From: Prauserella isguenensis
Lineage (GTDB): Bacteria; Actinomycetota; Actinomycetes; Mycobacteriales; Pseudonocardiaceae
Direction of reading: 5' to 3'
Length of the DNA: 64,000 bases
Assembly: GCF_014191605.1 (NCBI RefSeq)
Contig: NZ_JACHWU010000003.1
Coordinates: forward strand, 124,001-188,000
Positions 1,237 to 16,278 of this stretch are shown here, piece by piece; the stretch's first letter is position 1, and every line of letters begins with the position of its first letter. A model generated the notes under the pieces. That model ran no database searches and was not told the origin of the DNA. It saw only the letters and a program-made list of their open reading frames with translations. The position numbers and the translations under genes were made by a program.

Positions 1237-2304
1237 TCACAACGCCAAAGCGCTTCGCAGACCGCGGACCGCGGAGCGTCCCGCCCGGGAGGCACCGACC
1301 GTGCTCGCGGACGGACCGTAGCCGACAAGGTGGACGCGCGGCTCGGCCACGACCTCGGTGCCGTTCATCCGGATACCGCCCCCGCGCTCCCGCAGGCCCA
1401 ACGGAGCCAGGTGGTCGAGGGCCGCCCGGAACCCGGTGGCCCACAGAATGACGTCGGCAGGTTCTTCGGTGCCGTCGGACCAGGCCACCCCACTGGGCGT
1501 GATGCGCTCGAACATCGGCCTGCGGTCGAGCACTCCCGCCTCTCGCGCAGCGCGGACCTCGGGGGTGAGCATCAGGCCGGTCACGCTGACGACGCTGCGT
1601 GGCGGTTTGCCTTCGCGGACGCGTTCGTCCACCTCGGCGACGACCTCGCGGCCGTACTCGGGCGTGAACTCCTCGTCGCGGAACACCGGCGGCGTGCGCG
1701 TGACCCACGTCGTGGCCGCGGCGACCGGGGCGATCTCCAACAGCTGCTGCACGGCGGAACTACCCCCTCCGACGACCACGACACGCCGGTCCCGGAACTC
1801 GGCGGCCCCGGTGAAGTCGGCGGTGTGCAACTGCCTGCCGGCGAACGTGCCGCGGCCCGGGTACCACGGCTGGAAGGGGCGGTCCCACGTACCGGTCGCG
1901 TTGACGATCCCGCGGGCGAGCCACGTCTCGGTGAGCGTGTCGACGAGGAATCCGCTCCGCTCGCCGTCGGCGTACCGCACCGAGCGCACGTCGGCAGGCC
2001 GGTGAACCGGCAGATCGAAGGTGCGTTCGTAGCGGGCGAAGTACTCGCTGACGACCTCCGAGGCGGGCCTGTCTGCGTCGGCGTCCTCGAGCGGGAGCCC
2101 CGGCAGGTCGTGCAACCCGTGCACCCTGCCGAGCCGCAGCGACGGCCACCGGTACTGCCACGCTCCGCCGGCCCGTTTGGCGTGGTCGAGGACAACGAAA
2201 CCGGCCTCCGGCGCGAGCCCGGCCCGCCGGAGGAAATAGGCGGCGGACAGCCCCGCCTGCCCCGCGCCGATGACGGCGACGTCCACGGTGTAATCGGCCC
2301 ACAT
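1237..2304 (-). CDS. FAD/NAD(P)-dependent flavin monooxygenase-type oxidoreductase
   Basis: 355-aa flavoprotein of the FMO/CzcO type. An N-terminal FAD-binding Rossmann motif VIGAGQAGLSAAYFLRRAG lies near residues 10-28. A second dinucleotide-binding motif VVVVGGGSSAVQQLL occurs mid-protein, and an ATGF motif (ILWATGFR) follows, as in flavin monooxygenases and related reductases. The substrate is unknown. It is transcribed in the same direction as the molybdenum-hydroxylase genes, 128 bp after the coxG-like gene, so it may oxidise the product of that enzyme; this is inference. No good ribosome binding site precedes the chosen ATG (2304), so the start is uncertain. Confidence 0.8.
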   Translation of the reverse strand: MWADYTVDVAVIGAGQAGLSAAYFLRRAGLAPEAGFVVLDHAKRAGGAWQYRWPSLRLGRVHGLHDLPGLPLEDADADRPASEVVSEYFARYERTFDLPVHRPADVRSVRYADGERSGFLVDTLTETWLARGIVNATGTWDRPFQPWYPGRGTFAGRQLHTADFTGAAEFRDRRVVVVGGGSSAVQQLLEIAPVAAATTWVTRTPPVFRDEEFTPEYGREVVAEVDERVREGKPPRSVVSVTGLMLTPEVRAAREAGVLDRRPMFERITPSGVAWSDGTEEPADVILWATGFRAALDHLAPLGLRERGGGIRMNGTEVVAEPRVHLVGYGPSASTVGASRAGRSAVRGLRSALAL

Positions 2305-2432: not shown

Positions 2433-3248
2433 TCAGGTGTCGGCGCCGCCCTGCTTCTTCCCGCACAGCAGGCGGATGATGGCGATCACGCCGACCAGGG
2501 CGACGAGACCGCCGATCATCGGCGCGGCACGTTTGGCGACCGACGCGCCCGCGTAGTCGAACAGGTCGATGGCCTCGGCCTCCCGGCCGCCACCGGGTTT
2601 GACCGACTCGAGCTGCGGTTTCTCCGGCTCCGGCGGCGGAGACGCCGCGGCCGCACCGCTCGCGATGGCCGACCCACCTCCGGCACCCGGGGTCGTGTCC
2701 CGGCCCGACGATGCCGCGGGGCCCGCCGAACCGCCGTCCGTACCCGACGTACCCGCCGCGCTCGACGTTCCTGCCGACTCCGACGAGCTCGACGCAGCCG
2801 AGGAGTCCGATCCCAGTTCGGCCGACAGGTTCTCGGCGAAACTGTCGAGGATCTTGCCGCCCACCTCGGAGATCATGCCGCGGCCGAACTGGGCCGGTTT
2901 ACCGGTCACGTTCAGGTCCGTGGCGACCGCACCCTTCGTGCTGCCGCCCTCGGCCGTCAGGGTCACGGTGACCGTCGCCGCCGCCGTGCCCGCGCCCCGG
3001 GAGTCCTTGCCGGACGCCTTGATCGTGATCTCCCGCGACGTCTCGTTCTTCTCGAGAAACTCGCCGTTGCCCTTGTAGAGCAGGGAGACCGGGCCCAGCT
3101 TGACCTTCACCGTGCCCTTGAACGTGTCGCCCTCGACGGACGTCAGCGTGGCCCCGGGCATGCACGGCGCCACGCGCTCCGGGTCGATGATCGCCTGCCA
3201 CACCTCGTCGATGGGTGCCGGGACGGTGAATTCGTGGTCCAGCCGCAC
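2433..3248 (-). CDS. coxG: SRPBCC-family CoxG-like protein with C-terminal membrane anchor
   Basis: 271-aa protein. Residues ~1-150 form a CoxG/SRPBCC fold: the start RLDHEFTVPAPIDEVWQAI and the PCMPGATL segment are diagnostic. Then come a low-complexity Ser/Ala/Gly linker (~155-215) and a C-terminal helix (APMIGGLVALVGVIAIIRLL). CoxG is known from Oligotropha to help recruit the CO dehydrogenase to the membrane, which matches the anchor seen here. The GTG start at 3248 has an excellent AAGGAGG upstream; a longer open frame to 3728 is not needed. It is the last cox gene of the cluster, separated from coxM by 197 bp holding a hairpin and short repeats. Confidence 0.85.
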   Translation of the reverse strand: MRLDHEFTVPAPIDEVWQAIIDPERVAPCMPGATLTSVEGDTFKGTVKVKLGPVSLLYKGNGEFLEKNETSREITIKASGKDSRGAGTAAATVTVTLTAEGGSTKGAVATDLNVTGKPAQFGRGMISEVGGKILDSFAENLSAELGSDSSAASSSSESAGTSSAAGTSGTDGGSAGPAASSGRDTTPGAGGGSAIASGAAAASPPPEPEKPQLESVKPGGGREAEAIDLFDYAGASVAKRAAPMIGGLVALVGVIAIIRLLCGKKQGGADT

Positions 3249-3270
3249 GGGCCGACCTCCTTCCTCGATA

Positions 3271-3296
3271 CCTGCGCTCGATGCCTGCGCTCGATG
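3271..3296. repeat. Two tandem copies of a 13-bp repeat
   Basis: CCTGCGCTCGATG occurs twice head-to-tail (3271-3283, 3284-3296) in the coxM-coxG gap. Another 13-mer, CCTCGGTGCGCCG, is repeated at 3307-3319 and 3352-3364. Function is unknown. Confidence 0.7.
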
Positions 3297-3396
3297 CGCC
3301 TTGCTCCCTCGGTGCGCCGCGGTCCCGCCTCGATGACTCGATCGCTCGGTACCTCGGTGCGCCGTCGTCTTCGTTGCCCACGTCCGTGAACCGCGA

Positions 3397-3430
3397 GGGC
3401 ACCGCGGACCGTTGGCGGCCCGCGGTGCCC
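3397..3430 (-). terminator. Hairpin downstream of coxM
   Basis: The arms GGGCACCGCGG (3397-3407) and CCGCGGTGCCC (3420-3430) form a perfect 11-bp stem with a 12-nt loop, starting 15 nt after the coxM stop. There is no U tract. It could terminate or attenuate transcription between coxM and the coxG-like gene. Confidence 0.5.
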
Positions 3431-3445
3431 TGCCGGTCACGGCGG

Positions 3446-4300
3446 TCAGCCGGCCATCGCCGCCTCGACGGCACGTCCCGTCAACACCCTGGCCAGGTGC
3501 TGCCGATACTCGACGTCGGCGTTGCCGTCGACGGTCGGGCTCGTGCCTTCCGCGGCGTGTTCGGCGGCCGCCCGGATCGTCTCGGCGTCGGCCGACCTGC
3601 CCACGAGGGCCTGTTCCACCGCGGTCGCCCGCACCGGAATGGAGGCCATGTTGGTCAGTCCGATCCGGGCCTCGGTGATCGTGCCGCCCTCGGCGCGGAC
3701 CGTGGCCGCCACCGCGACCATCGACCACGCCTGTGCGACGCGGTTGAACTTCTCGTAGTGCGCCGACCAGCCCGTGTGCTTCGGTATCCGCACCTCGACG
3801 AGGATGTCCTCCGGCGCCAGCGACGTCGTGAAGAAGTCCTGGAAGAACTCCGCGGCCGACGCGGTGCGGCGGCCTCCGGTGCCCTGGATGACCATCTCCG
3901 CATCCAGCGCCAGCGCCGGCGCGAGGAGGTCACCCGCAGGGTCGGCGTGCGCCAGCGAACCACCGAACGTGCCCCGATGCCGCACCTGCGGGTCGGCGAC
4001 CGTGTCCGTGGCCCTGGCCAGCAACAACGCGTGGTCGTGCACGAGCGGGTCACGCTGCACGTCGTAGTGCGTGCTCATCGCACCGATCACGACGGCATCG
4101 CCCTCGTCGCGCACCCCCTTCAGCTCACCGATCTTGCCGAGATCCACGACCGTGGTCGGTGCGGCGAGGCGCATCCGCAGTACGGGCAGCAGGCTCTGCC
4201 CGCCGGCCAGCACCTTGGCGTCCTCGCCCGCGTCGGCGAGCGCACGCACCGCCTCGTCCACAGTGGACGGTGCTACGTAGTCGAACGGAGCGGGGATCAC
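3446..4300 (-). CDS. coxM: Molybdenum hydroxylase FAD-binding medium subunit (CoxM-like)
   Basis: 284-aa FAD subunit of a xanthine oxidase-family heterotrimer, passing electrons from the 2Fe-2S subunit to FAD and then to an acceptor. It starts with [18 protein letters not shown] and carries the FAD pyrophosphate motif AGGQSLLPVLRMR and the second motif TFGGSLAHADPAGD, both typical of CoxM/CutM. The length matches the family (~280-300 aa). The GTG start at 4300 overlaps the coxL stop by 4 bp (GTGA), showing translational coupling. Complex assembly with CoxL and CoxS is known for the family; the substrate is not shown by this subunit. Confidence 0.93.
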   Translation of the reverse strand: MIPAPFDYVAPSTVDEAVRALADAGEDAKVLAGGQSLLPVLRMRLAAPTTVVDLGKIGELKGVRDEGDAVVIGAMSTHYDVQRDPLVHDHALLLARATDTVADPQVRHRGTFGGSLAHADPAGDLLAPALALDAEMVIQGTGGRRTASAAEFFQDFFTTSLAPEDILVEVRIPKHTGWSAHYEKFNRVAQAWSMVAVAATVRAEGGTITEARIGLTNMASIPVRATAVEQALVGRSADAETIRAAAEHAAEGTSPTVDGNADVEYRQHLARVLTGRAVEAAMAG

Positions 4301-6738
4301 TGCGCACCTCCGTGTGCTGAGTCGATCGAGCCGAGTCCGCCACCGGCCTCGGCTCCGGGGCCGCCTGCGGCGGCGTCGCCCTCGTGGACGGCGCGCCACA
4401 CGCGCATCGGACTGAGGGGCATCTCGATGTCGTTGACGCCGTGGTGTCGCACCGCGTCCACGACCGAGTTGACCACGGCCGGGGTCGAGGCGATGGTGCC
4501 CGCCTCGCCGACGCCCTTGACCCCGAGCGGGTTCGACGTCGCGGCCGTCTCGGTGCGGTCGGTGGTGAACGACGGCAGGTCCATCGCCGACGGCAACAGG
4601 TAGTCGGCGAACGTGCCCGAGGTGAGCGTGCCGAACTCGTCGTACACCGCTTCCTCGAACAGCGCCTGGGCGATGCCCTGCGCCAGCCCGCCGTGCATCT
4701 GCCCTTCGACGATCAGAGGGTTGATGACCTTGCCGATGTCGTCGACGCAGACGTACGAGCGCAGCCGCACCCGACCGGTCTCGGTGTCGACCTCCGTCGC
4801 GCACAGGTGCGTGCCGTGGGGGAACGAGAAGTTCTCCGGGTCGAACACGGCCTCGGAGTCCAATGTGGGCTCCACGCCCTCCGGCAGGTCGTGCGCCGCG
4901 AACACCGCGAGCGCCACGTCCTGGATGGCCGTCGAGGTGTCCGTGCCGCGGACGGTGAACTTGCCGTCGGCGAACTCGAGGTCGTCCTCGGAGGCCTCCA
5001 TCAGGTGCGCGGCGACCTTCCGGGCCTTGGCGATCACCTTCTCCGCGGCCTTGACCACGGCGATACCGCCGACGGTCAGCGACCGCGAACCGTAGGTGTC
5101 GAGGCCCTTGTGCGAGGACTGCGTGTCGCCGTGCAGGATCTCGATGTCGTCGAATCCCACCCCGAGCTGGTCGGCGACGATCTGGCTCCACGCCGTCTCG
5201 TGCCCCTGTCCGTGCGGTGAGGCACCCGTGACCACCTCGACCTTGCCGGTCGGCAGCATGCGAATCGCCGCGTGTTCCCAGCCGCCCGCGCCGTAGTCGA
5301 GCGAGCCGAGCACCCGGGACGGTGCGAGACCGCACATCTCGGTGAACGTCGAGATGCCGATGCCGAGCTGGACCCGGTCTCCGCGCTCCCGGCGTTCGCG
5401 TTGTTCGCGGCGCAGTCCGTCGTAGTCGAACAGCTGCATCGCCTTGGCCGTCGCGGCCTCGTAGTTGCCCGAGTCGTAGGTCAGCGTGGAGACCGTGGTG
5501 TACGGGAACTCGTCATGCTTGATCCAGTTCTTCTCTCGCAGCTCCATCGGGTCCATGCCGAGCTCGGCCGCGAGCTCGTCCATGATCCGCTCGATGGCGA
5601 ACGTCGCCTCCGGCCTGCCCGCCCCGCGATAGGCGTCGGTGAGCGTGGTGTTGGTGAACACCGTGGTGCAGGAGAAGCGGTAGGCCGGGACCTTGTAGAT
5701 CGCGTTGAACATGAACGCGCCGAGCACCGGGACACCGCCACCGACGATGCCGAGGTAGGCGCCCATGTCGGCGAGCAGGTCGACCTTCAGGCCCGTGATG
5801 GTGCCGTCCCGGGATGCCGAGATCGTGATGTCCTGCATCTGGTCACGGCCGTGGTGGGCGGACACCATCGTCTCGGAGCGCGACTCGGTCCACTTCACGG
5901 GTTTGCCGAGCTTCTGCGCCACCACCACCGCGGCGCACTCCTCGGGAGTCACCGCGAGCTTGCCGCCGAAGCCACCGCCCACGTCGGGGGCGATCACCCG
6001 CACCTGGTGTTCCGGCAGACCGAGCGTCATCGCCACCATCGTCTTGAGGATGTGCGGCACCTGCGTGGCCGACCACATCGTCAGCTGGGGTGCCGTGGGG
6101 TCCACGACGACCGACCGCGGCTCCATGAACGCGGGCACCAGCCGCTGCTGGCGGAACCGGCGGGTGACCACGACTTCGGAGCTGCTGATGGCCTGCTGCA
6201 CGTCACCACCGGAGCCGGCCTCCGCGGAGTCGAAGATCCACTCGGCGCTCTTGTTCGTGCCCATGTCCTCGTGCACCAGCGGGGCGCCATCGGCGACGGC
6301 GTCGTCGACGCCCAGCACCACGGGCAGGTCGTCGTAGTCGACGTCGATCTCGGCGAGCGCGTCCTCGGCCTCGGCGGCACTGCGCGCGATCACCACGGCG
6401 ACCGCTTCACCCGCGAAGTTCACTGTGCCCTGCGCGAGCATCGGCCTGCGCGGGGTCTTCTGGTCGGGGGTGATCGGCCATGCATTGGGCATACCGACCT
6501 CCCCGCCCGGATCGAGGTCGTCGCCCGTGTACACCGCGATCACGCCCGGCATCTCCTTGGCCGCCGACGTGTCCATGGCGGTGATCCGCGCGTGAGCCGT
6601 CGGACTGCGCAGGAAGGCCATGTGGACCAGGCCCGGCAGCGCGATGTTGTCGGTCCAGCGGGTACGGCCGGTGATGAGGCGCTCGTCCTCCTTCCGGACG
6701 CGCGCCCGGCCGACCTCCGGTTCGGCCATGGCGGTCAT
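4297..6738 (-). CDS. coxL: Molybdenum hydroxylase large subunit, form II CoxL type
   Basis: 813-aa molybdopterin-cytosine-dinucleotide subunit. Residues ~10-140 are the Ald_Xan_dh_C 'hammerhead' domain and the rest is the Mo-binding domain. [10 protein letters not shown] lies at ~251-260, and a GVGEAGT segment near the C-terminus carries the expected catalytic Glu. The active-site loop reads AYRGAGR (369-375). Form I CO dehydrogenases have AYXCSFR with a Cys that binds copper; AYRGAGR is the form II signature, so CO oxidation is not supported. A nearby hydroxylated aromatic, heterocycle or aldehyde substrate is more likely. The first ATG (6738) overlaps the coxS stop by 4 bp and is preferred over a second ATG three codons later. 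Confidence 0.93.
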
Positions 6739-7268
6739 GCGTCACCTCCGACACCTGTCGTGGTGCGCTCGCCGTCGGCGACCTGTTCGGCCTCCGGGCC
6801 CGCACCCGGCCGCATGTGCCCTGCCGCGTCGCGCACGGCGCGGACGATGTTCTGATAACCGGTACAGCGGCAGAGGTTTCCTTCGAGTCCTTCGCGGACG
6901 GCCTCCTCGTCAGGGTTGGGATTGTCAGCCAGCAGGTCGATCGACTGCATGATCATGCCGGGGGTGCAGAACCCGCACTGCAACGCGTGGTTGTCGCGGA
7001 AGGCCTGCTGCACCGGGTGGAGCTGCCCGTCACGGGCGAGCCCCTCCACCGTGGTGACCTCGCCGCCGTCCGCCTGAACGGCCAGTACCGAACAGGACTT
7101 CACGCTCTGCCCGTTGAGATGCACGGTGCAGGCGCCGCAGTTACTCGTGTCGCAGCCGACGACGGTTCCGGTCTTGCCGAGCTTCTCCCGCAAGTGGTGC
7201 ACGAGCAGGGTCCGCGGTTCGACTTCGTCCGTGTAGCCGGTCCCGTCGACGGTGACGGTGATGCGCAT
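6735..7268 (-). CDS. coxS: Molybdenum hydroxylase 2Fe-2S small subunit (CoxS-like)
   Basis: 177-aa iron-sulfur subunit with two [2Fe-2S] clusters. The plant-ferredoxin-like N-terminal cluster uses C39, C44, C47 and C59 ([12 protein letters not shown]). The C-terminal helical cluster uses C98, C101, C132 and C134 (QCGFCTPGM and [10 protein letters not shown]). The C-terminus after ~145 is a longer, charged tail than usual. The start MRITVTVDG at 7268 follows AGGAGG at good spacing. It is the first structural gene of the coxSLM set, and 367 bp of noncoding sequence precede it, so it may have its own promoter. Confidence 0.95.
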
Positions 7269-7635
7269 GGGGCCTCCTGTGGTGGCTCGGTCCGCCGGGT
7301 GTGGACGGGCCGCGTGGAACGGCCGGAGCCGACCGCCTCCTACGGTGATCGGCTTCACACTCGAGCCTGCTACGTCTGCCCTCGCTCGACAACCCCGATC
7401 TTGGGTGCGCGTCCGGGTGATTTCCGCATTCGGCGGAGTTCGGCCTGGAAGACCGCATTGCGGTCGCAGCAACTATCCCCCGATCGGCGGTACGAAGGGT
7501 CCGTTCGCGCCGTTGCCGGTAGCCCACTCCCCGCAGTCGGGCGTGTGCCGTCCGCCGTCCCTCGGCGTGACCCGTGGCCCCTCGGCGTCGTCCGTCGGCG
7601 TCGGGGTCTCTCCGCGTCGGGGTCTCTGGGCGTCG
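7269..7635. promoter_or_regulatory. 367-bp intergenic region before coxS with a perfect palindrome and a short tandem repeat
   Basis: No coding sequence is supported here. At 7451-7465 the sequence GACCGCATTGCGGTC is a perfect inverted repeat (7-bp arms, 1-nt centre), about 185 nt upstream of coxS, and could bind a dimeric regulator. At 7598-7627 GCGTCGGGGTCTCT occurs twice with a 16-bp period near the end of xdhC. This is the only long gap inside the cox gene series, so it is the likeliest site for a coxSLM promoter; no confident -35/-10 pair is visible. Confidence 0.5.
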
Positions 7636-8760
7636 TCAGCGTTGCTGTTCGGTGTGGATCCGGCCGTCGACGTCGGTCAGCCTGCGACCACCGCCGCCCC
7701 ACTTCAACGCGATGATCTCCGCCGCGATCGACACCGCGGTCTCCTCGGGGGTCCGCGCGCCGAGGTCCAGGCCGATCGGGGAGGCGAGCCGTTTGAACTC
7801 GGCGTCGGTCAGGCCCGCCTCACGCAGCCGGGCCAGCCGGTCGTCGTGTGTGCGCCGCGAGCCCATCGCCCCGACGTACCCGACGTCGAGCCGCAGCGCG
7901 ACCTCCAGCACGGGCACGTCGAACTTCGGGTCGTGCGTGAGCACGGCGATCACGGTGCGCCGGTCGATCCGCCCGGCGTCGGCCTCGGCCTTCAGGTACC
8001 GGTGCGGCCAGTCGACGATGACCTCGTCGGCATCGGGGAACCGCGTCGTCGTCGCGAACACCGGGCGCGCGTCGCAGACCGTCACCTCGTAGCCGAGGTA
8101 GGCGCCCATGCGCGCCATCGCCGCGGCGAAGTCGATCGCACCGAACACGAGCATCCGTGGCGGCGGCTCGAAGGTGTTGACGAACACCGACATCCCCTCG
8201 CCGCGCCGCTGTCCGTCCGGCCCGTAGTGCAGCGTGCCGGAGCGGCCCCCCGCGAGCATGCCGCGGGCGTCGTCCAGCACCGCGTCGTCGATGCGGTCCG
8301 ACCCCAGACCGCCCCGGGCCTCCTCCGGCCACACCAGCATCCGCCTGCCCTGCAACTCGGCGTCGGGATGCTCGATCGTGGTCACCAGCGCCACCGGGTT
8401 GCCTTCCCGCACCGAGGCGACGAGTTCGGGCAGGTCGGGCATCGAGTCGCGGTCGATGCGCTCGACGAAGATGTCGATGATGCCGCCGCAGGTCAGGCCC
8501 ACGGCGAACGCGTCGTCGTCGCTGACGCCGTAGCGCTGCAGCACAGGCTCACCGTCGGCGATCACCTGTTGTGCGAGTTCGTAGACCGCCCCTTCGACGC
8601 AACCGCCGGACACACTGCCGACCGCTTCGCCGTCACCGCCCACGAGCATCGCCGCCCCGGGCGCCCGGGGAGCCGACGAGAAGGTCGCGACCACGGTGCC
8701 GATGCCGACCGTCGCCCCCGCTTCCCACCGGCGGTACACCTCGTCCAGCACGTCATGCAT
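7636..8760 (-). CDS. xdhC: XdhC/CoxI-family molybdenum cofactor insertion protein
   Basis: 374-aa XdhC-family protein. Such proteins bind the cytosine-dinucleotide form of molybdenum cofactor, help sulfurate it and hand it to the large subunit of xanthine dehydrogenase-type enzymes. The N-terminal XdhC/CoxI domain has GSVSGGCVEGAVYE and LTCGGIIDIFVE; the C-terminal Rossmann domain has VFGAIDFAAAMARMG and the DARPVFA and GYVGAMGSRRT motifs. Length is normal. It overlaps the 3' end of coxE by 8 bp. Its presence with coxE, coxD and mocA shows the locus carries its own maturation set. Confidence 0.92.
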   Translation of the reverse strand: MHDVLDEVYRRWEAGATVGIGTVVATFSSAPRAPGAAMLVGGDGEAVGSVSGGCVEGAVYELAQQVIADGEPVLQRYGVSDDDAFAVGLTCGGIIDIFVERIDRDSMPDLPELVASVREGNPVALVTTIEHPDAELQGRRMLVWPEEARGGLGSDRIDDAVLDDARGMLAGGRSGTLHYGPDGQRRGEGMSVFVNTFEPPPRMLVFGAIDFAAAMARMGAYLGYEVTVCDARPVFATTTRFPDADEVIVDWPHRYLKAEADAGRIDRRTVIAVLTHDPKFDVPVLEVALRLDVGYVGAMGSRRTHDDRLARLREAGLTDAEFKRLASPIGLDLGARTPEETAVSIAAEIIALKWGGGGRRLTDVDGRIHTEQQR

Positions 8761-9868
8761 CTCGGACCTCCCGCAACAGTCGTTCCAACGTGGCCAGGCT
8801 GTGCCCCGCCAGTAACCGATCCACGTGCGGCAGCGCTGCGGCGATGCCGGACTGCACCGGCTCGTACCCGTCCCGTCCCGCGTGCGGGTTCACCCACAAC
8901 ACGCTGTGCGCCAACCGCCGCAGCCGTGCCATCTGCTCGCCGAGCAGCGCCGTGTCGCCGCGTTCCCAGCCGTCGGAGAACACGACGACGACGGCCCGCC
9001 GGGCCAGGCCCCGCTGGCCCCACCGGTCGAGGAACACGCGCAGCGTCTCGCCGAGCCGGGTGCCGCCCGCGAAGTCGGCGACGGCCTCCCCCGCGGCGAG
9101 CATCGCCCGCTCCGGGTCGCGCTGCCGCAACGCCCTCGACACCCGGGTCAGCCGCGTACCGAGCGTGAACGCCTCCACATCGGCGGGAGCGCTGCGGACG
9201 ACGACGTGCGCGAACCGCAACAGTGAGTCCGCGTAGGGCTTCATCGAACCGGACACGTCCACGAGCAGCACGACCCGCCGCGGCCGCGTGCGCCTGCGCG
9301 CGTACGCCAGCCGCGCGGGTTCGCCCCCGGCGGCGATCATCGCCCGGAACGTGCGACGCGGGTCGAGCCTGCCCCGGTGCGCGGACCGCAGCCGTGAGGA
9401 CCGCCGGCGCGGCGACACCGGCCGCAACGTCCGGAACAGCTCGCGCAGGTGTCGGCGTTCGGCATCGGACAGCTCCCCGAGGTCCCGGTCGCGCAGCAGC
9501 TCGACATCGCTGGCGGCGACGCTGAGCTGTTCGCCCGCCTCGGTGTCGCCCTCGCCGTCGCCCTCGTCGGACATCGGTGCGATGCGGGCGCGCTGCTCCC
9601 TACGCACCGGCATGCCACCCGGGTCCTGGTCGGCACCGCCGAACCAGCTCGCGAAGGCCTGGTCGTACCGCGGCAGGTCGTCGGGGTCGGCACACAGCGT
9701 CAACCTGCCGGCCCAGTACAACTGGGCGGCATCGCCGACGTCGACCCGCTCGACGGCGTCGAGATACGTGCGCACGCGGTGCCGGTCGCAGGGCAGGCCC
9801 GCCTCGCGCAACGCCGTCGTGAAGCCGACCAGGCCCGGCAGCGGATCGGTCACGTCCGTTTCGGCCAT
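8753..9868 (-). CDS. coxE: VWA-domain protein, CoxE family
   Basis: ~371-aa CoxE-like protein. The C-terminal half is a von Willebrand A domain with a complete MIDAS start, LLVDVSGSMKPY (DxSxS), and the later VVVFSDGWERGD segment. The N-terminal half is charged and Arg-rich (DAERRHLRELFRTLRP, then SPRRRSSRLR). CoxE works with the AAA+ ATPase CoxD in maturing the Mo/Cu site of CO dehydrogenase; in form II loci its client is presumably the coxSLM enzyme. coxD lies 56 bp upstream and xdhC overlaps its end. Starts at 9868 (MAETDV) and 9883 (MHDGSMAE) are both possible; the inner ATG has GGA at better spacing. Confidence 0.9.
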   Translation of the reverse strand: MAETDVTDPLPGLVGFTTALREAGLPCDRHRVRTYLDAVERVDVGDAAQLYWAGRLTLCADPDDLPRYDQAFASWFGGADQDPGGMPVRREQRARIAPMSDEGDGEGDTEAGEQLSVAASDVELLRDRDLGELSDAERRHLRELFRTLRPVSPRRRSSRLRSAHRGRLDPRRTFRAMIAAGGEPARLAYARRRTRPRRVVLLVDVSGSMKPYADSLLRFAHVVVRSAPADVEAFTLGTRLTRVSRALRQRDPERAMLAAGEAVADFAGGTRLGETLRVFLDRWGQRGLARRAVVVVFSDGWERGDTALLGEQMARLRRLAHSVLWVNPHAGRDGYEPVQSGIAAALPHVDRLLAGHSLATLERLLREVRDA

Positions 9869-9924
9869 GCTTCCATCATGCACCGCCGGCGCCCGTCCTC
9901 CGAGTGCCGAGACCCGGCGTCACC

Positions 9925-10872
9925 TCAACCGAGGACCGCGTCGAGCCTGGTGCGGACGCGGTCGAGGTCCTCGCTGAACTTCAGCACCGCGCCGAGTGTG
10001 GTGGCCGCGGACGCCGCGTCGAGTTCGTCGCGCCCCAGCGCGCGCAGCGCGTTGGCCCAGTCGAGCGCCTCCGCGACACCGGGTGGCTTGAGCAGTTCCA
10101 TGGTGCGCAGCCGCTGCAGCGTCTCCGCGATCTGCTCGGCGAGCCGCTGGCCGATGCCGGGCACTCGTGCCCGCAGGATCGCGATCTCCCGCGACAGGTC
10201 CGGGTGTTCGAGCCAGTGGTACAGGCAGCGGCGTTTGAGCGCGTCGTGCACCTCGCGGGTGCGGTTGGACGTGAGCACGACGAGGGGCGGCTGCGCGGCG
10301 CGTACCTCGCCGTACTCGGGGATCGTCACCGTGTTCTCGTCGAGCAGCTGCAGCAGGAACGCCTCGAACTCGTCGTCGGCGCGGTCGATCTCGTCGACGA
10401 GGAGCACGCACGGCGACGAGCGCAACGCCGTGAGCAGCGGCCGGGCGAGCAGGAACCGCTCGGTGTAGAGCGACTGCTCGGCGGCGTCGACGTCGAGCCT
10501 CCCACCCTCGGCGGCCTCGAGCGCGCGCAGATGCAACAGCTGCCGAGGGAAGTCCCATTCGTACAGTGCCTGGGCCGCGTCGATCCCCTCGTGGCACTGC
10601 AACCGAACCAGCGGCAGCTCCAGGCTCTCCGACAACGCCACGGCGAGCGACGTCTTACCCGTGCCGGGTTCGCCTTCGCAGAACAGTGGCTTGCCCATGC
10701 GCAGGGACAGGAACGCGGCGGTGGCGACACCGTCGTCGGCGAGATACCCGATGCCGGCGAGCAGCGCCGACAGCTTGGCAGGCGACGACACGGAGGACAG
10801 GTCGGGCCCTGCGGAGGAGGCGGTGCGGGCTGTTCCGGCGGCAGTGCCGCCCGCGGCGGGTTCGCTTGTCAC
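9925..10872 (-). CDS. coxD: MoxR/CoxD-type AAA+ ATPase
   Basis: 315-aa MoxR-family AAA+ ATPase. Walker A is GEPGTGKTS (67-75), Walker B is VLLVDEID (156-163), and sensor 1 is VVLTSNRTRE. The first ~30 residues are a disordered Ala/Gly/Ser segment. CoxD is a chaperone that partially unfolds CoxL so that the active-site metal can be completed; it pairs with VWA proteins such as the neighbouring CoxE. It lies 42 bp after mocA in the same direction. CoxD-like rather than general MoxR function is inferred from the context. Confidence 0.93.
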   Translation of the reverse strand: MTSEPAAGGTAAGTARTASSAGPDLSSVSSPAKLSALLAGIGYLADDGVATAAFLSLRMGKPLFCEGEPGTGKTSLAVALSESLELPLVRLQCHEGIDAAQALYEWDFPRQLLHLRALEAAEGGRLDVDAAEQSLYTERFLLARPLLTALRSSPCVLLVDEIDRADDEFEAFLLQLLDENTVTIPEYGEVRAAQPPLVVLTSNRTREVHDALKRRCLYHWLEHPDLSREIAILRARVPGIGQRLAEQIAETLQRLRTMELLKPPGVAEALDWANALRALGRDELDAASAATTLGAVLKFSEDLDRVRTRLDAVLG

Positions 10873-10914
10873 GTACTCACCCTAGGCATCCCCCTGCCGA
10901 TGACGGCAACCTTC

Positions 10915-11484
10915 TTACGGGTCAAGCAGCTCGGGCGTGTCGGCGTCACGCCCGCCGCCGATGTCGCCGCAGTCGACGAGCCGCACGTCGTCGCGGGCGC
11001 GGAGCCAGTCGCGGGCGCCCCGGTCGCCGGCAGCCTGCGCGGCGACCTCGGCCCACCAGCGGCGGCCGAACAGCACGGGGTGCCCGGGAGCGCCCGCGTA
11101 CGCGGCACGGGCGACGACACCGGTGCTCGCATGGGCACGCATCCGCGTGACGACGTCCGCGCCGACGTCGGGCAGGTCGACCAGGTGCACGAGCGCCGCG
11201 TCCGGAGGTGGGGCGACGTCGGCGAGCGCGCGCAGTCCCGCACGCAGCGATGCCCCCATGCCCTCGGCCCAGTCGTCGGCGACGACCGCCCGCGCCCCGT
11301 CCGGCACCAGCGGCCGCGCCTCCTCGGCGCGTGCGCCGAGGACGACGACGACCGGATCGCAGCCGCCGTCGAGCAGCACGTCGGCCGCGCGCGTCACGAG
11401 GGCCGCGCCCCGGTGTGTCGCAAGGGCCTTGGGCATGCCGAAGCGGCTCCCCTGTCCCGCCGCGAGCAGCAGTCCGGCGGTCAT
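10915..11484 (-). CDS. mocA: MocA/MobA-like molybdenum cofactor nucleotidyltransferase
   Basis: 189-aa NTP-transferase. The N-terminal signature LLLAAGQGSRFGMPKAL (5-21) matches the G-rich nucleotide-binding loop of MobA/MocA proteins, and LVDLPDVGADVV carries the metal-binding Asp segment. MocA makes molybdopterin cytosine dinucleotide, the cofactor form used by CoxL-type enzymes, so it fits the cluster better than MobA (guanine form). Its start overlaps the end of the IclR regulator by 4 bp (11481-11484), which couples the pca and cox gene sets in one transcript. MocA specificity is inferred from the neighbours. Confidence 0.85.
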   Translation of the reverse strand: MTAGLLLAAGQGSRFGMPKALATHRGAALVTRAADVLLDGGCDPVVVVLGARAEEARPLVPDGARAVVADDWAEGMGASLRAGLRALADVAPPPDAALVHLVDLPDVGADVVTRMRAHASTGVVARAAYAGAPGHPVLFGRRWWAEVAAQAAGDRGARDWLRARDDVRLVDCGDIGGGRDADTPELLDP

Positions 11485-12368
11485 GGGCGGGCCGATCCTG
11501 TGCGAGGTGGCGCGGCGGCGAGCAAGTCCGCCTCGATGCCGCGCGCGGCCTCCCGCAGCGGCGGCAACAGCTCGGCCCGCATCGCCTCCGGGCTGCGGCG
11601 GGACGCGTGGGTCGACAGGTTCACGGCGGCGGAGACCGTCCCGTCGGCGCCGTGTACGGGCACGGCGATCGACCTCAGACCGTCCTCCAGTTCCTGGTCG
11701 ACGAGTGCGTATCCCGCCTCTCGTACGCCGGCGAGCTCGGCGCGCAGCGCATCGGCCGAGTCGGTGGTGCGGTCGGTGAACCGGTCGAACGTGGCCGAGG
11801 CCGCGTAGGCCTCCAGCGCCTCGTCGGACAGCCCGGCGAGCAGCACGTGCCCCATCGACGTGGCATGGGCCGGGAATCGCGTGCCGACACTGATCGTGAC
11901 CGCCATGATCCGTGACACGGCCACGCGCGCGACGTACACGATGTCGGAGCCCTCGAGCACCGACATCGAACTCGACTCGCTCACCTCGGCCGACAACCGC
12001 TCCAGGTGGGGCTGCGCCAGTCCCGGCAGCGACAGCCCGGACAGGAACGAGTACCCGAGTTCGAGCACCTTGGCGGTGAGCGAGAACTGCCTGCCGTCGC
12101 TGCGCACGTAGCCGAGGTCGACGAGCGTGAGCAGGAAACGGCGGGCGGCTGCGCGGGTCAGCCCCGTGGCTTTCGCGACCTCGCTCAGCGTCAGATGAGG
12201 CGCCGCCGGGCCGAACGCGGTGATGACGGCCAGCCCGCGTTCCAGCGACTGCACGTGGTGGGTGCCCCTGCCCCGCTCGGCACCGTCCGGCGGGGTCTCG
12301 GCACCCGCCGTGTCCTCGCCGTCGGCCGTGCGGTCACCTTCCGCCTCGGCGGCTGCTGCTCCATCCAT
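11481..12368 (-). CDS. pcaR: IclR-family regulator of the beta-ketoadipate genes (PcaR-like)
   Basis: 295-aa IclR regulator. After an acidic disordered N-terminus (~1-35) come a winged helix (HLTLSEVAKATGLTRAAARR, then LVDLGYV) and the effector-binding domain with the conserved MGHVLLAGL and SIAVPV segments. PcaR/PcaU/PobR proteins of this subfamily control protocatechuate and beta-ketoadipate genes in response to pathway intermediates. It is the fifth gene of the pcaIJFD series, 26 bp after pcaD, and overlaps mocA, so it probably controls its own transcript. A matching inverted repeat lies ahead of pcaI (16088-16114). PcaR identity rests on family plus context. Confidence 0.87.
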   Translation of the reverse strand: MDGAAAAEAEGDRTADGEDTAGAETPPDGAERGRGTHHVQSLERGLAVITAFGPAAPHLTLSEVAKATGLTRAAARRFLLTLVDLGYVRSDGRQFSLTAKVLELGYSFLSGLSLPGLAQPHLERLSAEVSESSSMSVLEGSDIVYVARVAVSRIMAVTISVGTRFPAHATSMGHVLLAGLSDEALEAYAASATFDRFTDRTTDSADALRAELAGVREAGYALVDQELEDGLRSIAVPVHGADGTVSAAVNLSTHASRRSPEAMRAELLPPLREAARGIEADLLAAAPPRTGSARP

Positions 12369-12394
12369 AGGAGACCCAACCTAGCCGGAGCGGC

Positions 12395-13162
12395 TCACGC
12401 CTTCGCGAGGTGCGTGGTGATCAGCTCGGTGAACCGTTCCGGCTGTTCGACGTTGCCGAGATGCGCTGCGCCGGGCACGACCTCGAGCCGCGCGTGCGGC
12501 ACGGCGTCGGCGATGACGTCGCCGTGGCCCTCGGGCGGCGTCGCCGAGTCGTCGGCGCCGGCGATCACCAGGGTCGGCACCGGGATCGACGGCAGCCCGT
12601 CGAGGAGGTCCATCGTCGCGATGGCGTGGCAGCACGCGGCGTACCCGGCCGCGGGGGTCGCCGCCGTCATGTGGTGGTACTCGCGTCGCTCCTGCGGGTG
12701 GGCGGCCAGCCAGTCCGGAGTGAACCAGCGCTCGATGCTGCCGTCGGCGATCACCGTCATACCCTGCTCCCGCGCCGTGCGGCCACGTTCGAGCCACGAC
12801 TCGGGCGTGCCCAGCTTCGCCGACGTGCAGCACAGCACGAGACTGCGCAGCCGCTCGGGCGCGTGGCTGCCGAGCCACATCCCCGTCATGCCGCCGAGCG
12901 ACAGACCCACGAAGTGCGCCCGGTCCACGCCGAGGCCGTCGAGCAGCTCGAGCACGTCGCCACCGAGGTCGGCCATGGTCACGTCACTGTCCGGGACGGC
13001 AGTACGGCCGTGTCCGCGCTGGTCGTACCGCACGACGCGGTAACCCTCGCGGACCAGCGGCTCGACCTGCGGCTCCCACATCGTCAGGTTGGACCCGATC
13101 GACCCGGACAGGACGACGACGTCGCCGTCGGCGGGTCCGTCGACCACGCTGTGCACCTGCAT
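12395..13162 (-). CDS. pcaD: 3-oxoadipate enol-lactonase
   Basis: 255-aa alpha/beta hydrolase that opens beta-ketoadipate enol-lactone to beta-ketoadipate. The nucleophile elbow is VGLSLGG with Ser88; RYDQRGHGRT is the strand-4 turn typical of PcaD; the Asp lies in AGADDSATPPE and the His in GAAHLGNVEQPERF. Length matches stand-alone PcaD; there is no fused decarboxylase domain as in PcaL. The start is ATG at 13162 after GAGGGAGAA. It lies 55 bp downstream of pcaF. The context with pcaIJF makes this the best reading of an otherwise general fold. Confidence 0.92.
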   Translation of the reverse strand: MQVHSVVDGPADGDVVVLSGSIGSNLTMWEPQVEPLVREGYRVVRYDQRGHGRTAVPDSDVTMADLGGDVLELLDGLGVDRAHFVGLSLGGMTGMWLGSHAPERLRSLVLCCTSAKLGTPESWLERGRTAREQGMTVIADGSIERWFTPDWLAAHPQERREYHHMTAATPAAGYAACCHAIATMDLLDGLPSIPVPTLVIAGADDSATPPEGHGDVIADAVPHARLEVVPGAAHLGNVEQPERFTELITTHLAKA

Positions 13163-13217
13163 GCGTTCTCCCTCGTGTCTACTCCGGGTACCCGGAACCG
13201 GTCCGGGCACGTCGGTG

Positions 13218-14393
13218 TCAGGCCTCGAGCACAACCGCCAGGCCCTGCCCGACGCCGATGCAGATCGCGGCCAGACCGTACCCGCCACCGCGGCGCCGCA
13301 GCTCGTGGGCGAGCGTGCCGAGGATCCGGCCCCCGGACGCACCGAGCGGGTGGCCGATCGCGATGGCGCCACCGTTGACGTTGACGATGTCCGGGTCGAG
13401 CTCGGGCCAGTCGGCCAGGCACGCCAGCGATTGTGCGGCGAAGGCCTCGTTGAGTTCCACCGCGGCCAGGTCGCCCCAGCCGATGCCGGCGCGCTGCAAC
13501 GCGATCTCGGCGGCACGCACCGGGCCGATACCGAACACGTCCGGGTCCACGCCCGCCGCGCCGCGACCTGCGATGCGGGCCAGCGGCGTGGCGCCCACTC
13601 GGCCGGCTCCCGCCCTGTCCCCGAGCAGCAGCGCGGACGCACCGTCGTTGAGCGGTGAGGCGTTGCCTGCGGTGATGGTGCCGTCCGCGCGGAACGCGGC
13701 CTTGAGCTTCGCCAGCTTGTCCACAGTGGAGTCCGGACGGATGCCCTCGTCCCGTGTCAGCTCGGTGCCGGGCACCGGGACGACGTGTGTGTCGTAGAAG
13801 CCCTCGTCCCACGCCCTCGCCGCGTTCACGTGACTCCGGACGGCGAACTCGTCCTGTGCCCGTCGCGAGATCGTGTACTGCTCGGCGACGCGTTCGGTCG
13901 ACTCGCCGAGCGACACCGTCCACTGCTCCGGCATCCGCGGATTCACCATCCGCCAGCCGAGCGTGGTCGAGTGCAGTTGCTGGTTCCCCGCGGGGAACGC
14001 CTTCTCGGGCTTCTGCACGACCCACGGCGCCCGGCTCATGGACTCCACGCCGCCCGCCACGATCAGCGACGCGTCGCCGACGGCGATGGTCCGGCTCGCC
14101 TGCATCGCGGCGTCCAGACCGGACCCGCACAAGCGGTTGATCGTGCTGCCGGGAACCGACGTCGGCCAGCCGGCGAGCAGCGAGGCCATGCGAGCGACGT
14201 TGCGGTTGTCCTCACCCGCCTGGTTGGCATCGCCGAGAAGCACTTCGTCCACTGCGGCCAGATCGACGTCGCTACGCTCCCGCAGTGCCGACAATACGTG
14301 TGCGGCCAGATCGTCGGGCCGCACGCCCGACAACGAGCCGGTGTACTTGCCGAACGGGGTGCGGACGGCATCGAGCACGAAAACGTCGGTCAC
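13218..14393 (-). CDS. pcaF: Beta-ketoadipyl-CoA thiolase
   Basis: 391-aa thiolase that cleaves beta-ketoadipyl-CoA with CoA into succinyl-CoA and acetyl-CoA. The acylated Cys is C89 in NRLCGSGLDA; the C-terminal catalytic residues are in GGAIAIGHPLGASG (His) and AAICIGVGQG (Cys). The usual last motif is CIGGGQG, so one Gly is Val here; this is a minor variant. The GTG start at 14393 overlaps the pcaJ stop by 4 bp and has GGAGG upstream. Specificity for beta-ketoadipyl-CoA rather than acetoacetyl-CoA is inferred from pcaIJ and pcaD beside it. Confidence 0.94.
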   Translation of the reverse strand: MTDVFVLDAVRTPFGKYTGSLSGVRPDDLAAHVLSALRERSDVDLAAVDEVLLGDANQAGEDNRNVARMASLLAGWPTSVPGSTINRLCGSGLDAAMQASRTIAVGDASLIVAGGVESMSRAPWVVQKPEKAFPAGNQQLHSTTLGWRMVNPRMPEQWTVSLGESTERVAEQYTISRRAQDEFAVRSHVNAARAWDEGFYDTHVVPVPGTELTRDEGIRPDSTVDKLAKLKAAFRADGTITAGNASPLNDGASALLLGDRAGAGRVGATPLARIAGRGAAGVDPDVFGIGPVRAAEIALQRAGIGWGDLAAVELNEAFAAQSLACLADWPELDPDIVNVNGGAIAIGHPLGASGGRILGTLAHELRRRGGGYGLAAICIGVGQGLAVVLEA

Positions 14394-15184
14394 CGCGAGG
14401 CCTCCTTGAGCGTGCGCAACGTGGACAGTTCGGCCGCGGTCGGCGCATCGGTACGAGCCAGCTCGGGGGAGATCTTCAGGTCCCATCCCGTCGCGGCGCG
14501 GACGTCCTCGACCTCCACGCCGGGGTGCAGCTGGGTGAGGACGAGCTCGGAAGTCTCCGGGTCCGGCCGCAGCACGCCGAGATCCGTGATCACCAGTGTC
14601 GGGCCTGCCCCAGGCAGGCCGAGCCGCTCCCGATCGCCCTTACCCGAGCCGTGACCGACCGAGGTCACGAAGTCGACCTTCTCGACGAAACTGCGCGCGC
14701 TCTGGCGCACGACGACGAAGACCTCGTGGCACGACGCCGCGATCTCCGGCGCACCGCCCGCACCGGGCAGCCGCACCTTCGGGTCGGTGTAGTCGTCACC
14801 GATGACCGTCGTGTTGATGTTGCCGAACCTGTCCAGCTGCGCAGCACCCAGGAACCCGACGTCGATACGTCCCGGCTGCAGCCAGTAGTTGAACACCTCG
14901 GGCACACCGATCACGGCGTCGGCCGTCTCGGCCAGTACCCCGTCACCGATCGACGACGGCAGCACGTCCGGTTTGGACCCGAGCGTGCCGGACTCGTAGA
15001 TCAGCACGAGGTCCGGCGCGTGGGTGCGCCGTGCGACGTTCGCCGCCGTCGACGGCAGACCGATGCCGACGAAGCACCGCTTGCCGTTCTCCAGCGCGCG
15101 GGCTGCGGCGACGGACATCATCTCGTCGGACGTGTAGTCCTGCTGCGCGCCGGACGCAGCGGTCGTGGATGCGGCCCCGCTCAT
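14390..15184 (-). CDS. pcaJ: 3-oxoadipate CoA-transferase subunit B
   Basis: 264-aa family I CoA-transferase beta subunit. With PcaI it moves CoA from succinyl-CoA to beta-ketoadipate. It has the RCFVGIGLPSTAANVA segment and the LIYESGTLG motif whose Glu (about residue 64) is the likely covalent catalytic residue. It overlaps pcaI upstream and pcaF downstream by 4 bp each (ATGA, GTGA), a tightly coupled operon. The pair also resembles the steroid-ring CoA-transferase IpdAB of actinobacteria, but pcaF and pcaD beside it favour PcaIJ. Confidence 0.9.
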   Translation of the reverse strand: MSGAASTTAASGAQQDYTSDEMMSVAAARALENGKRCFVGIGLPSTAANVARRTHAPDLVLIYESGTLGSKPDVLPSSIGDGVLAETADAVIGVPEVFNYWLQPGRIDVGFLGAAQLDRFGNINTTVIGDDYTDPKVRLPGAGGAPEIAASCHEVFVVVRQSARSFVEKVDFVTSVGHGSGKGDRERLGLPGAGPTLVITDLGVLRPDPETSELVLTQLHPGVEVEDVRAATGWDLKISPELARTDAPTAAELSTLRTLKEASR

Positions 15185-16029
15185 CGCACACCCTCCTTGT
15201 CGCCTGCGGCATCGGCCGAGTCCCTTCCGGCGAGCACCTCGTCACGAACCCAGGTCCGGAAGGTGTCGCGGTCACGCCCGATCGAGTCCCAGTACTTGTA
15301 GTAGGCGTTGTCGCGTTCGTAGTAGCCCTGCGCGTACGACGGGTGCGCTCCGCGGGGCGCCTCGGCCACGGCGGTGACGGCCCAGTGCGGCAGTACGACC
15401 TGACCGGCGACCGGTTCGAGTTCGTCGACGACCTCCTCGACCGTCACGAGACTGCGCCCGGCTGCCAGCACGGCTTCCTTCTGCACGCCGACCAGGCCCC
15501 ACATCTGCACGTTGCCCGCACGGTCGGCGCGCTGCGCGTGGATGATCGACACGTCGGGGTTGATCGCGGGCACCGCCGCGAGCTCCTCCCCGGTGAACGG
15601 GCACGTGATCCACTTGATCGTGGCCGTGTGCTCCGGCAGATCCGTGCCGCGGTAGCCGCGCAACACGGCGAACGGCAGGCCGGACGCACCGGCGACGTAC
15701 CGGTTGGCCATACCGGCGTGGCTGTGTTCCTCGATCTCCAGCGGCACCGGCCATGCGTGCTGCACCGCGTCGCGGAACCGATGCAGCGAGCCCACGCCGG
15801 GGTTGCCGCCCCACGAGAAGATCAGCTTCCGCGCGCAGCCCGCGCCGATGAGCTGGTCGTACACGATGTCCGGCGTCATACGGACCAGAGTCAGGTCCTG
15901 ACGCCCCTGCCGGATGATCTCCTGCCCCGCCGCATGCGGGATCAGATGCGTGAATCCTTCGAGTGCCACGACGTCTCCGTCGTGCACCAGTTCGCCGACG
16001 CCGTCGGCCAGCGACACGATGTCCGCCAC
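15181..16029 (-). CDS. pcaI: 3-oxoadipate CoA-transferase subunit A
   Basis: 282-aa family I CoA-transferase alpha subunit, partner of PcaJ. It begins with the glycine-containing VALEGFTHLIPHAAG segment that binds CoA and has SWGGNPGVGSLHRFRDAV. The last ~50 residues (NAYYKYWDSIGRDRDTF onward) form a tail seen in the actinobacterial members. It is the first gene of the pca/cox series; 59 nt upstream begins a strong inverted repeat that is the probable operator. Its stop overlaps the pcaJ start by 4 bp. Confidence 0.9.
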   Translation of the reverse strand: MADIVSLADGVGELVHDGDVVALEGFTHLIPHAAGQEIIRQGRQDLTLVRMTPDIVYDQLIGAGCARKLIFSWGGNPGVGSLHRFRDAVQHAWPVPLEIEEHSHAGMANRYVAGASGLPFAVLRGYRGTDLPEHTATIKWITCPFTGEELAAVPAINPDVSIIHAQRADRAGNVQMWGLVGVQKEAVLAAGRSLVTVEEVVDELEPVAGQVVLPHWAVTAVAEAPRGAHPSYAQGYYERDNAYYKYWDSIGRDRDTFRTWVRDEVLAGRDSADAAGDKEGVR

Positions 16030-16087
16030 GTTCTGCCACCTCGTTCACCGGATACCGGCGGCTCCACCGCCGACGTTCGTATAGCGC

Positions 16088-16114
16088 ACGTGTGTTCTTC
16101 ATATGAACATACGT
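16088..16114. promoter_or_regulatory. Candidate operator ahead of pcaI
   Basis: A 27-bp inverted repeat: outer arms ACGT (16088-16091, 16111-16114) and inner arms TGTTC (16093-16097) and GAACA (16105-16109) around a 7-nt centre, with one unpaired base between outer and inner arms. A second perfect palindrome, TTCATATGAA (16098-16107), overlaps its centre. It is an A/T-rich island in G+C-rich sequence 59-85 nt before the pcaI start. The IclR-type regulator encoded in the same transcript is the natural candidate to bind it; this is inference. Confidence 0.65.
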
Positions 16115-16174
16115 GTCGGCGGGACGCACCGTCAACATGCGGCGACGGCGGTCACGTCGCAGCCGACCCCGGAA

Positions 16175-16222
16175 ACGACAACGCCCCCGCGTGCCGCATC
16201 TCGGGCTCGCGGGGGCGTTGTC
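16175..16222 (-). terminator. Terminator of lgt
   Basis: A perfect 16-bp stem (16175-16190 with 16207-16222; core ACAACGCCCCCGCG) and 16-nt loop begins about 57 nt after the lgt stop. It separates the trp-lgt transcript from the pcaI promoter region. Confidence 0.8.
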
Positions 16223-16278
16223 GGACTCGGTGTGCCGACGGGGTTGCCGTCGGGGGTGTCGCGTCGCGGGGCGGACCC

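Follow-up and report, generated by a model that had tools for sequence, protein, structure and literature searches.

Clusters for form II (BMS-type) molybdenum (Mo) hydroxylases have their structural genes in the order S-L-M, carry the motif AYRGAGR in the large subunit, and are accompanied by CoxG and by CoxD, CoxE, XdhC/CoxI-type and MocA-like helper proteins. The pca operon of Rhodococcus opacus PD630 is described as having a single IclR-type regulator, PcaR, encoded within the operon together with a PcaR-type operator, and PcaR is reported there to be a repressor (PMC9582017). We analysed a stretch of 64,000 nucleotides (the window; C3:124001-188000 of a 4.95-Mb Prauserella-like genome) in which the two kinds of system stand one behind the other on the minus strand, in the order lgt, pcaI-J-F-D-R, mocA, coxD, coxE, xdhC, coxS-L-M and coxG. 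The closest named relatives by CoxL, both in identity (97%) and on the CoxL tree, are Prauserella salsuginis and P. alba. According to the original prediction, everything from pcaI to coxG is one regulon and the hydroxylase yields a precursor for the beta-ketoadipate pathway. The comparisons described below point to another arrangement, which we consider probable, in which two modules lie head to tail: a pca operon and a form II Mo-hydroxylase cluster under separate control. The window has all of the features of form II clusters listed above and differs from them, in a comparison drawn without a search for published form II promoters, by a conserved promoter pattern, a Crp/GlxR-like site and the pca operon in front. 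It likewise shares the internal IclR-type regulator and the operator with R. opacus, but its operon lacks pcaHGBC, as do the four named loci nearest to it (L050-L053) at this place.

The first module would be transcribed from a single promoter before pcaI. A sigma-70 consensus scan of positions 7100-16400 returned this as its sole promoter-like match (mean for shuffled sequences, 0.2), and the end of its predicted -10 is overlapped by a 34-bp element, GTTCNNATNNAGAAC-N4-GTGCG-N5-CGAAC. In an alignment of the region upstream of pcaI from 28 linked genomes (27 relatives and the window), where linked means that coxL and pcaI are no more than 40 kb apart, the pattern was matched in 26 and the remaining two had near-matches. 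An operator class GTNCG-N5-6-CGNAC, some members of which have an extra outer half-site, has been given for PcaR, PcaU and PobR (PMC8222616); the element before pcaI falls within it and is a putative operator. When the window and a further 64 kb to its left (128 kb in all) were scanned with a profile built from these 26 sites, the place before pcaI was the only one above the threshold. The exact half-site occurs three times in the genome, compared with none for the reversed pattern; two copies were rejected as operators, both being inside called reading frames, which leaves the copy before pcaI. Among eight pca loci that are not linked to cox, a PcaR-type site was present near pcaI in five (L160, L162, L163, L166 and L167), three of these sites scoring lower than the weakest of the 26, and the profile found none near pcaI in L161, L164 and L165. 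As the operator overlaps the predicted -10 and PcaR of R. opacus is a repressor, repression by PcaR is the most likely mode of control here.

If coxS belonged to the same regulon a PcaR site might be expected before it, but the profile matched none of the 76 regions examined upstream of coxS; the highest score there was -9.7, whereas the lowest among the 26 sites is 50. Conserved there instead is the sequence TTGTYN, 17 bases, CAGGCT or a variant of it, and then TGTGA-N6-TCAC. The promoter part was matched in 55 of 81 upstream regions with a spacer of 17 in all 55, a count that favours clear cases, as the pattern was picked by eye. The palindrome was exact in 70 of the 81, in pca-linked and unlinked genera alike, and of 69 exact plus-strand copies in 1.71 Mb of sequence (80 loci), 68 had a called coxS within the next 400 bp and one preceded no called gene. 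The consensus for GlxR is given as TGTGA-N6-TCACA (PMC7999487); the site in the window matches nine of its ten fixed bases and is, like GlxR/Crp sites, promoter-proximal. The window has a single exact copy of the palindrome, against an expectation of 0.33, and at least one copy was present in 29 of 100 shuffles; since chance matches are this common, its weight comes from conservation and not from rarity. Genome-wide there were 15 matches, compared with four for the reversed pattern; six of eight examined stretches of the genome carry it, and one of them has three matches (at two places) at least 157 bp before a gene read by eye as nuoA. The palindrome lies at the predicted coxS transcription start (~7357), a position that would fit repression. 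The second module, comprising coxSLM and perhaps coxG, would thus have its own conserved promoter, with the maturation genes mocA, coxD, coxE and xdhC preceding it; binding of PcaR and of a Crp-type protein at the predicted sites is, like the sign of control, proposed from sequence.

The distribution of the two gene sets was determined in a family sample of 140 genomes (thresholds E <= 1e-280 for coxL and E <= 1e-60 for pcaI), using one pcaI place per genome; weaker second copies (up to 63% identity) were set aside, and none of these was within 40 kb of coxL in the tables, which were read by eye. CoxL was found in 110 genomes and pcaI in 96, with both in 82, only coxL in 28, only pcaI in 14 and neither in 16. 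Conserved adjacency of pca and cox in relatives, which had been named as a check on the original prediction, was indeed present in 28 of the 140 genomes, from eight of 29 genera. In the other 54 genomes with both genes, coxL and pcaI were on separate contigs or, where they shared one, were separated by more than 1.5 Mb. These 54 of 82 unlinked cases, the 28 of 110 coxL genomes without pcaI at the threshold used, and one genome that has kept cox after losing most pca genes at the locus (G224, L179) argue against a shared regulon and against the assignment of the substrate to the beta-ketoadipate pathway. In G224 the locus keeps pcaF, with a PcaR half-site ahead of it, as well as pcaR, mocA and coxD to coxG, and the palindrome upstream of coxS is still in place; the other pca genes of the linked operon (pcaI, J, H, G, B, D and C) were not found there, and the genome has no pcaI match. 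All four other genomes of its genus are linked.

On a CoxL tree (a quick build of 81 proteins with a midpoint root, 65 rows labelled), a single branch of 52 rows, with an SH-aLRT support of 97%, contains all 40 linked rows. For named loci, 'unlinked' means that pca was not within the available flank, and the label was withheld from 16 of 80 loci with too little sequence before the first cox gene; L061, L069 and L089 were labelled linked through by-eye matches to linked genomes. L060, L074 and L080 have the unlinked label but fall in the linked branch, and these loci may have eroded or be truncated. The linked state requires at least four changes on this tree and is most simply read as a single gain, the exceptions being losses or cases that were missed. 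The linkage itself is genuine and, in this single clade, of long standing. The pca operon probably came to lie in front of an older form II cluster once; this would have placed it ahead of mocA, in an ancestor of the Amycolatopsis-Prauserella-Saccharomonospora group.

Three neighbouring features were considered and dropped. An unrelated gene, for a pyridine-nucleotide flavoprotein, follows coxG in the window (1237-2304); in 36 of the 39 linked named loci this gene is also close to cox, compared with 2 of the 25 unlinked ones. This pca-like pattern is expected if the neighbourhood was rearranged once, and the flavoprotein was dropped as an electron partner, as its distribution mirrors that of pca and it may merely share the neighbourhood. 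The gene lgt was not retained as a control neighbour: among the matches listed, 6 of 28 linked genomes, all from the window's genus, have it no more than 40 kb away from pcaI; it is probably a later gain and an unfair control of retention. Genes intervening between coxD and coxE in Amycolatopsis vary by subgroup and offered no clue to the substrate; one that was checked had no Pfam match.

As predicted, the ring-cleavage genes are outside the window. They are on the same contig about 50 kb to its left (pcaHGBC, C3:70736-73711), with PcaH, PcaG and PcaC above their family cut-offs and PcaB below (326 vs 356). Next comes pobA (C3:73708-74895), and with a divergent IclR-type gene on the other side the whole cluster is C3:69908-74895 (L130). 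Three relatives (L168, L169 and L170) have a linked operon in the order pcaI-J-F-H-G-(B)-D-C-R-mocA-coxD, pcaB not being called in L169. Against this linked type, the PcaH and PcaG encoded outside the window reach no more than 61% and 51% identity, respectively, and the pcaH-G-B-C-pobA cluster is possibly a replacement from another source. That ring-cleavage genes are part of the relatives' own pca operons, and that pobA and pcaHGBC are present in the genome of the window, counts against a hydroxylase whose aromatic or N-heterocyclic substrate would feed the beta-ketoadipate pathway.

Outside the family, 26 genomes had, among the matches listed, both a CoxL of at least 60% identity and a pcaI at the thresholds used (7 from an order sample and 19 from a class sample). 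One of these is a distant actinobacterium (G513, L180-L181) whose form II coxSLM lies about 15 kb from a coenzyme A (CoA)-transferase pair; by eye, the pair is beside an iron-type alcohol dehydrogenase, apparently a maleylacetate reductase, and an ATP-binding cassette transporter of the branched-chain amino-acid type. In another (G540) the better pcaI match is on a different contig, and the match near coxL is a CoA-transferase paralog of 57% identity in a different context. A second origin of linkage from these two genomes is suggestive at most. No title found in searches of open-licence literature named a linkage of a form II cox or Mo-hydroxylase cluster with pca.

Several results weigh against two separately controlled modules. 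The sigma-70 scan of 7100-16400 missed the coxS promoter, and no terminator-like site was found between xdhC and coxS. The exact palindrome is missing from 11 of the 81 regions upstream of coxS, ten of which also lack the TGTGR form, and its last base is C where the GlxR consensus has A. CoxL and pcaI co-occur above chance in the family (Fisher p 0.007, uncorrected for kinship), and their linkage has lasted in eight genera. Outside the family the best pcaI match was within 40 kb of coxL in 1 of the 26 genomes (G513), among the matches listed, or in 2 of 26 if the second match of G540 (21 kb from coxL) is counted, where 0.4 would be expected by chance and two or more would occur with a probability of about 6%. 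Among the 36 named loci in which pcaR and coxS were both called, pcaR and mocA overlap by 4 or 8 bp in 19, and all gaps up to xdhC are 100 bp or less in six, four of which are near kin of the window; such overlap and short gaps make read-through plausible.

The co-occurrence, the adjacency in eight genera and the lack of a terminator-like site before coxS would suit a single PcaR regulon from pcaI to coxG. The genes from pcaI to xdhC are on one strand and tightly spaced, and the close spacings predicted at the start were all recovered: 4-bp overlaps join pcaI, pcaJ and pcaF, pcaR begins 26 bp after pcaD, mocA overlaps pcaR by 4 bp and coxD follows 42 bp on. To these can be added the gaps between pcaF and pcaD (55 bp) and between coxD and coxE (56 bp), an 8-bp overlap of coxE with xdhC and 4-bp overlaps joining coxS, coxL and coxM; lgt is ahead of pcaI by 249 bp. 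The gap before coxS is 367 bp as predicted (xdhC ends at 7636 and coxS starts at 7268), although it is not the only long one, coxM and coxG being 197 bp apart. The G513 cluster, with its CoA-transferase pair in what appears to be another aromatic cluster, and the proposal of a CoxG partner for the 3-hydroxypyridine dehydrogenase of Ensifer (PMC11962113) would also be in keeping with an aromatic or N-heterocyclic substrate. Set against the conserved coxS promoter pattern and palindrome, the missing PcaR site and the frequent separation of the two gene sets, we regard a regulon that includes the catalytic genes, with a hydroxylase acting on such a substrate, as improbable.

A more limited coupling, compatible with two modules, is that transcripts from the pca promoter may extend into mocA, coxD, coxE and xdhC, so that growth on aromatic compounds would raise Mo-cofactor maturation while coxSLM kept its own control. 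The pcaR-mocA overlaps, the gaps of 42 and 56 bp up to coxE and the absence of a terminator-like site all favour this. However, extra genes were called between pcaR and coxS in 23 of the 36 loci: an opposite-strand gene in 11 and same-strand extras only in 12, with none in the other 13. The relatives' genes were called by a simple codon-usage script, so that start positions are approximate, and short opposite-strand calls in L054, L062, L076 and L116 (117-186 amino acids) may be false. In 47 of 72 loci a CACAATG-like motif was also found just ahead of the coxE start codon, compared with a mean of 0.3 and a maximum of 2 in letter shuffles; the 47 comprise 34 of 38 linked, 10 of 21 unlinked and 3 of 13 unlabelled loci, the variant in the window being CATGATG. 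This motif, which was first seen in an alignment and then counted in an overlapping set, resembles a -10 element and would suit a leaderless coxE transcript with a separate start. Read-through into the maturation genes is therefore put forward tentatively, as a possibility that we would not favour over its absence.

The two-module arrangement rests on the features collected in Table 1. The names pcaI and pcaJ come from context because only the general CoA-transferase family PF01144 fitted, neither protein matching an NCBIfam model at 1e-20. PcaF scored 472 against TIGR02430, below the cut-off of 597, and PcaR belongs to the PcaR/PcaU/PobR IclR regulators as defined by TIGR02431. The possibility that the cluster lacks coxM was discarded when a search for the FAD domain located it.

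Table 1. Features of the pca-cox locus, in positions of the window, listed in the direction of transcription.
Feature	Positions	Strand	Basis or remark
Predicted pca promoter, TTGACG-18-TATGTT	16106..16135	-	sigma-70 consensus scan
PcaR-type operator (putative), GTTCATATGAAGAACACACGTGCGCTATACGAAC	16075..16108	-	45 bp before pcaI; overlaps end of predicted -10
pcaI, CoA-transferase subunit A	15181..16029	-	Pfam PF01144; name by context
pcaJ, CoA-transferase subunit B	14390..15184	-	Pfam PF01144; name by context
pcaF, 3-oxoadipyl-CoA thiolase-like	13218..14393	-	top NCBIfam matches are 3-oxoadipyl-CoA thiolases, below cut-off
pcaD, 3-oxoadipate enol-lactonase	12395..13162	-	TIGR02427, 296 bits (cut-off 256)
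pcaR, IclR-family regulator	11481..12368	-	TIGR02431, 323.2 bits (cut-off 284.75)
mocA-like nucleoside triphosphate transferase	10915..11484	-	Pfam PF12804; MocA/YgfJ-like NCBIfam matches below cut-off
coxD, MoxR-type AAA ATPase	9925..10872	-	AAA Pfam families
CATGAT, possible -10 of leaderless coxE transcript	9875..9880	-	variant of CACAATG-like motif
coxE, VWA protein	8753..9868	-	Pfam PF05762
xdhC/coxI-type maturation factor	7636..8760	-	Pfam PF13478, PF02625
coxS promoter-like sequence, TTGTCG-17-CAGGCT	7364..7392	-	conserved in alignments
Crp/GlxR-like palindrome, TGTGAAGCCGATCAC	7345..7359	-	before coxS
coxS, 2Fe-2S subunit	6735..7268	-	Pfam PF01799, PF00111
coxL, Mo subunit	4297..6738	-	Pfam PF20256, PF02738, PF01315; AYRGAGR form II motif
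coxM, FAD subunit	3446..4300	-	Pfam PF00941, PF03450
coxG-like protein, hydrophobic C-terminal segment	2433..3248	-	Pfam PF06240; C-terminus by eye

The AYRGAGR motif of CoxL and the S-L-M order with an FAD subunit place the enzyme in form II. The solved proteins closest to CoxL are CO (carbon monoxide) dehydrogenases, followed by quinoline 2-oxidoreductase, and the cluster has a complete coxSLM with coxG, coxD and coxE, so an aerobic CO dehydrogenase has to be considered. CO-oxidising strains of Kyrpidia are reported to have a single CO dehydrogenase cluster in their genomes, which is of form II, and activity that is not linked to a particular gene is cited for an enzyme from Aeropyrum (PMC7248562). 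However, in an alignment against CO dehydrogenases AYRGAGR replaces the cysteine-bearing motif of form I, AYXCSFR, and the activity of form II enzymes has been called unresolved, or CO held not to be their physiological substrate (PMC13240472, PMC6794299). We therefore think it very unlikely that the enzyme is a CO dehydrogenase. Another CoxL-like protein, which shares 54% identity with the CoxL of the window, is encoded at C3:92545-94908, about 29 kb to the left of the window. CoxG proteins are described as anchoring partner enzymes at the membrane (PMC11962113), and as the CoxG here has a hydrophobic C-terminal stretch a membrane-held dehydrogenase is expected; the enzyme is likely to be a Mo dehydrogenase held at the membrane through CoxG and feeding the respiratory chain.

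The gene neighbourhood had seemed a clue to the substrate of a form II enzyme. The comparison suggests otherwise: the pca neighbourhood does not appear to assign it. The conserved promoter pattern and the defined 15-bp site before coxS are directly testable by binding and reporter work. More speculatively, and in our view doubtfully, the form II enzyme of the Pseudonocardiaceae may be a respiratory dehydrogenase controlled by Crp and cyclic AMP, whose maturation genes have in one clade been captured by a PcaR operon, so that aromatic acids would set the level of active enzyme. If true, this would tie the enzyme to the carbon and energy state of the cell and would provide a regulatory handle on its role.

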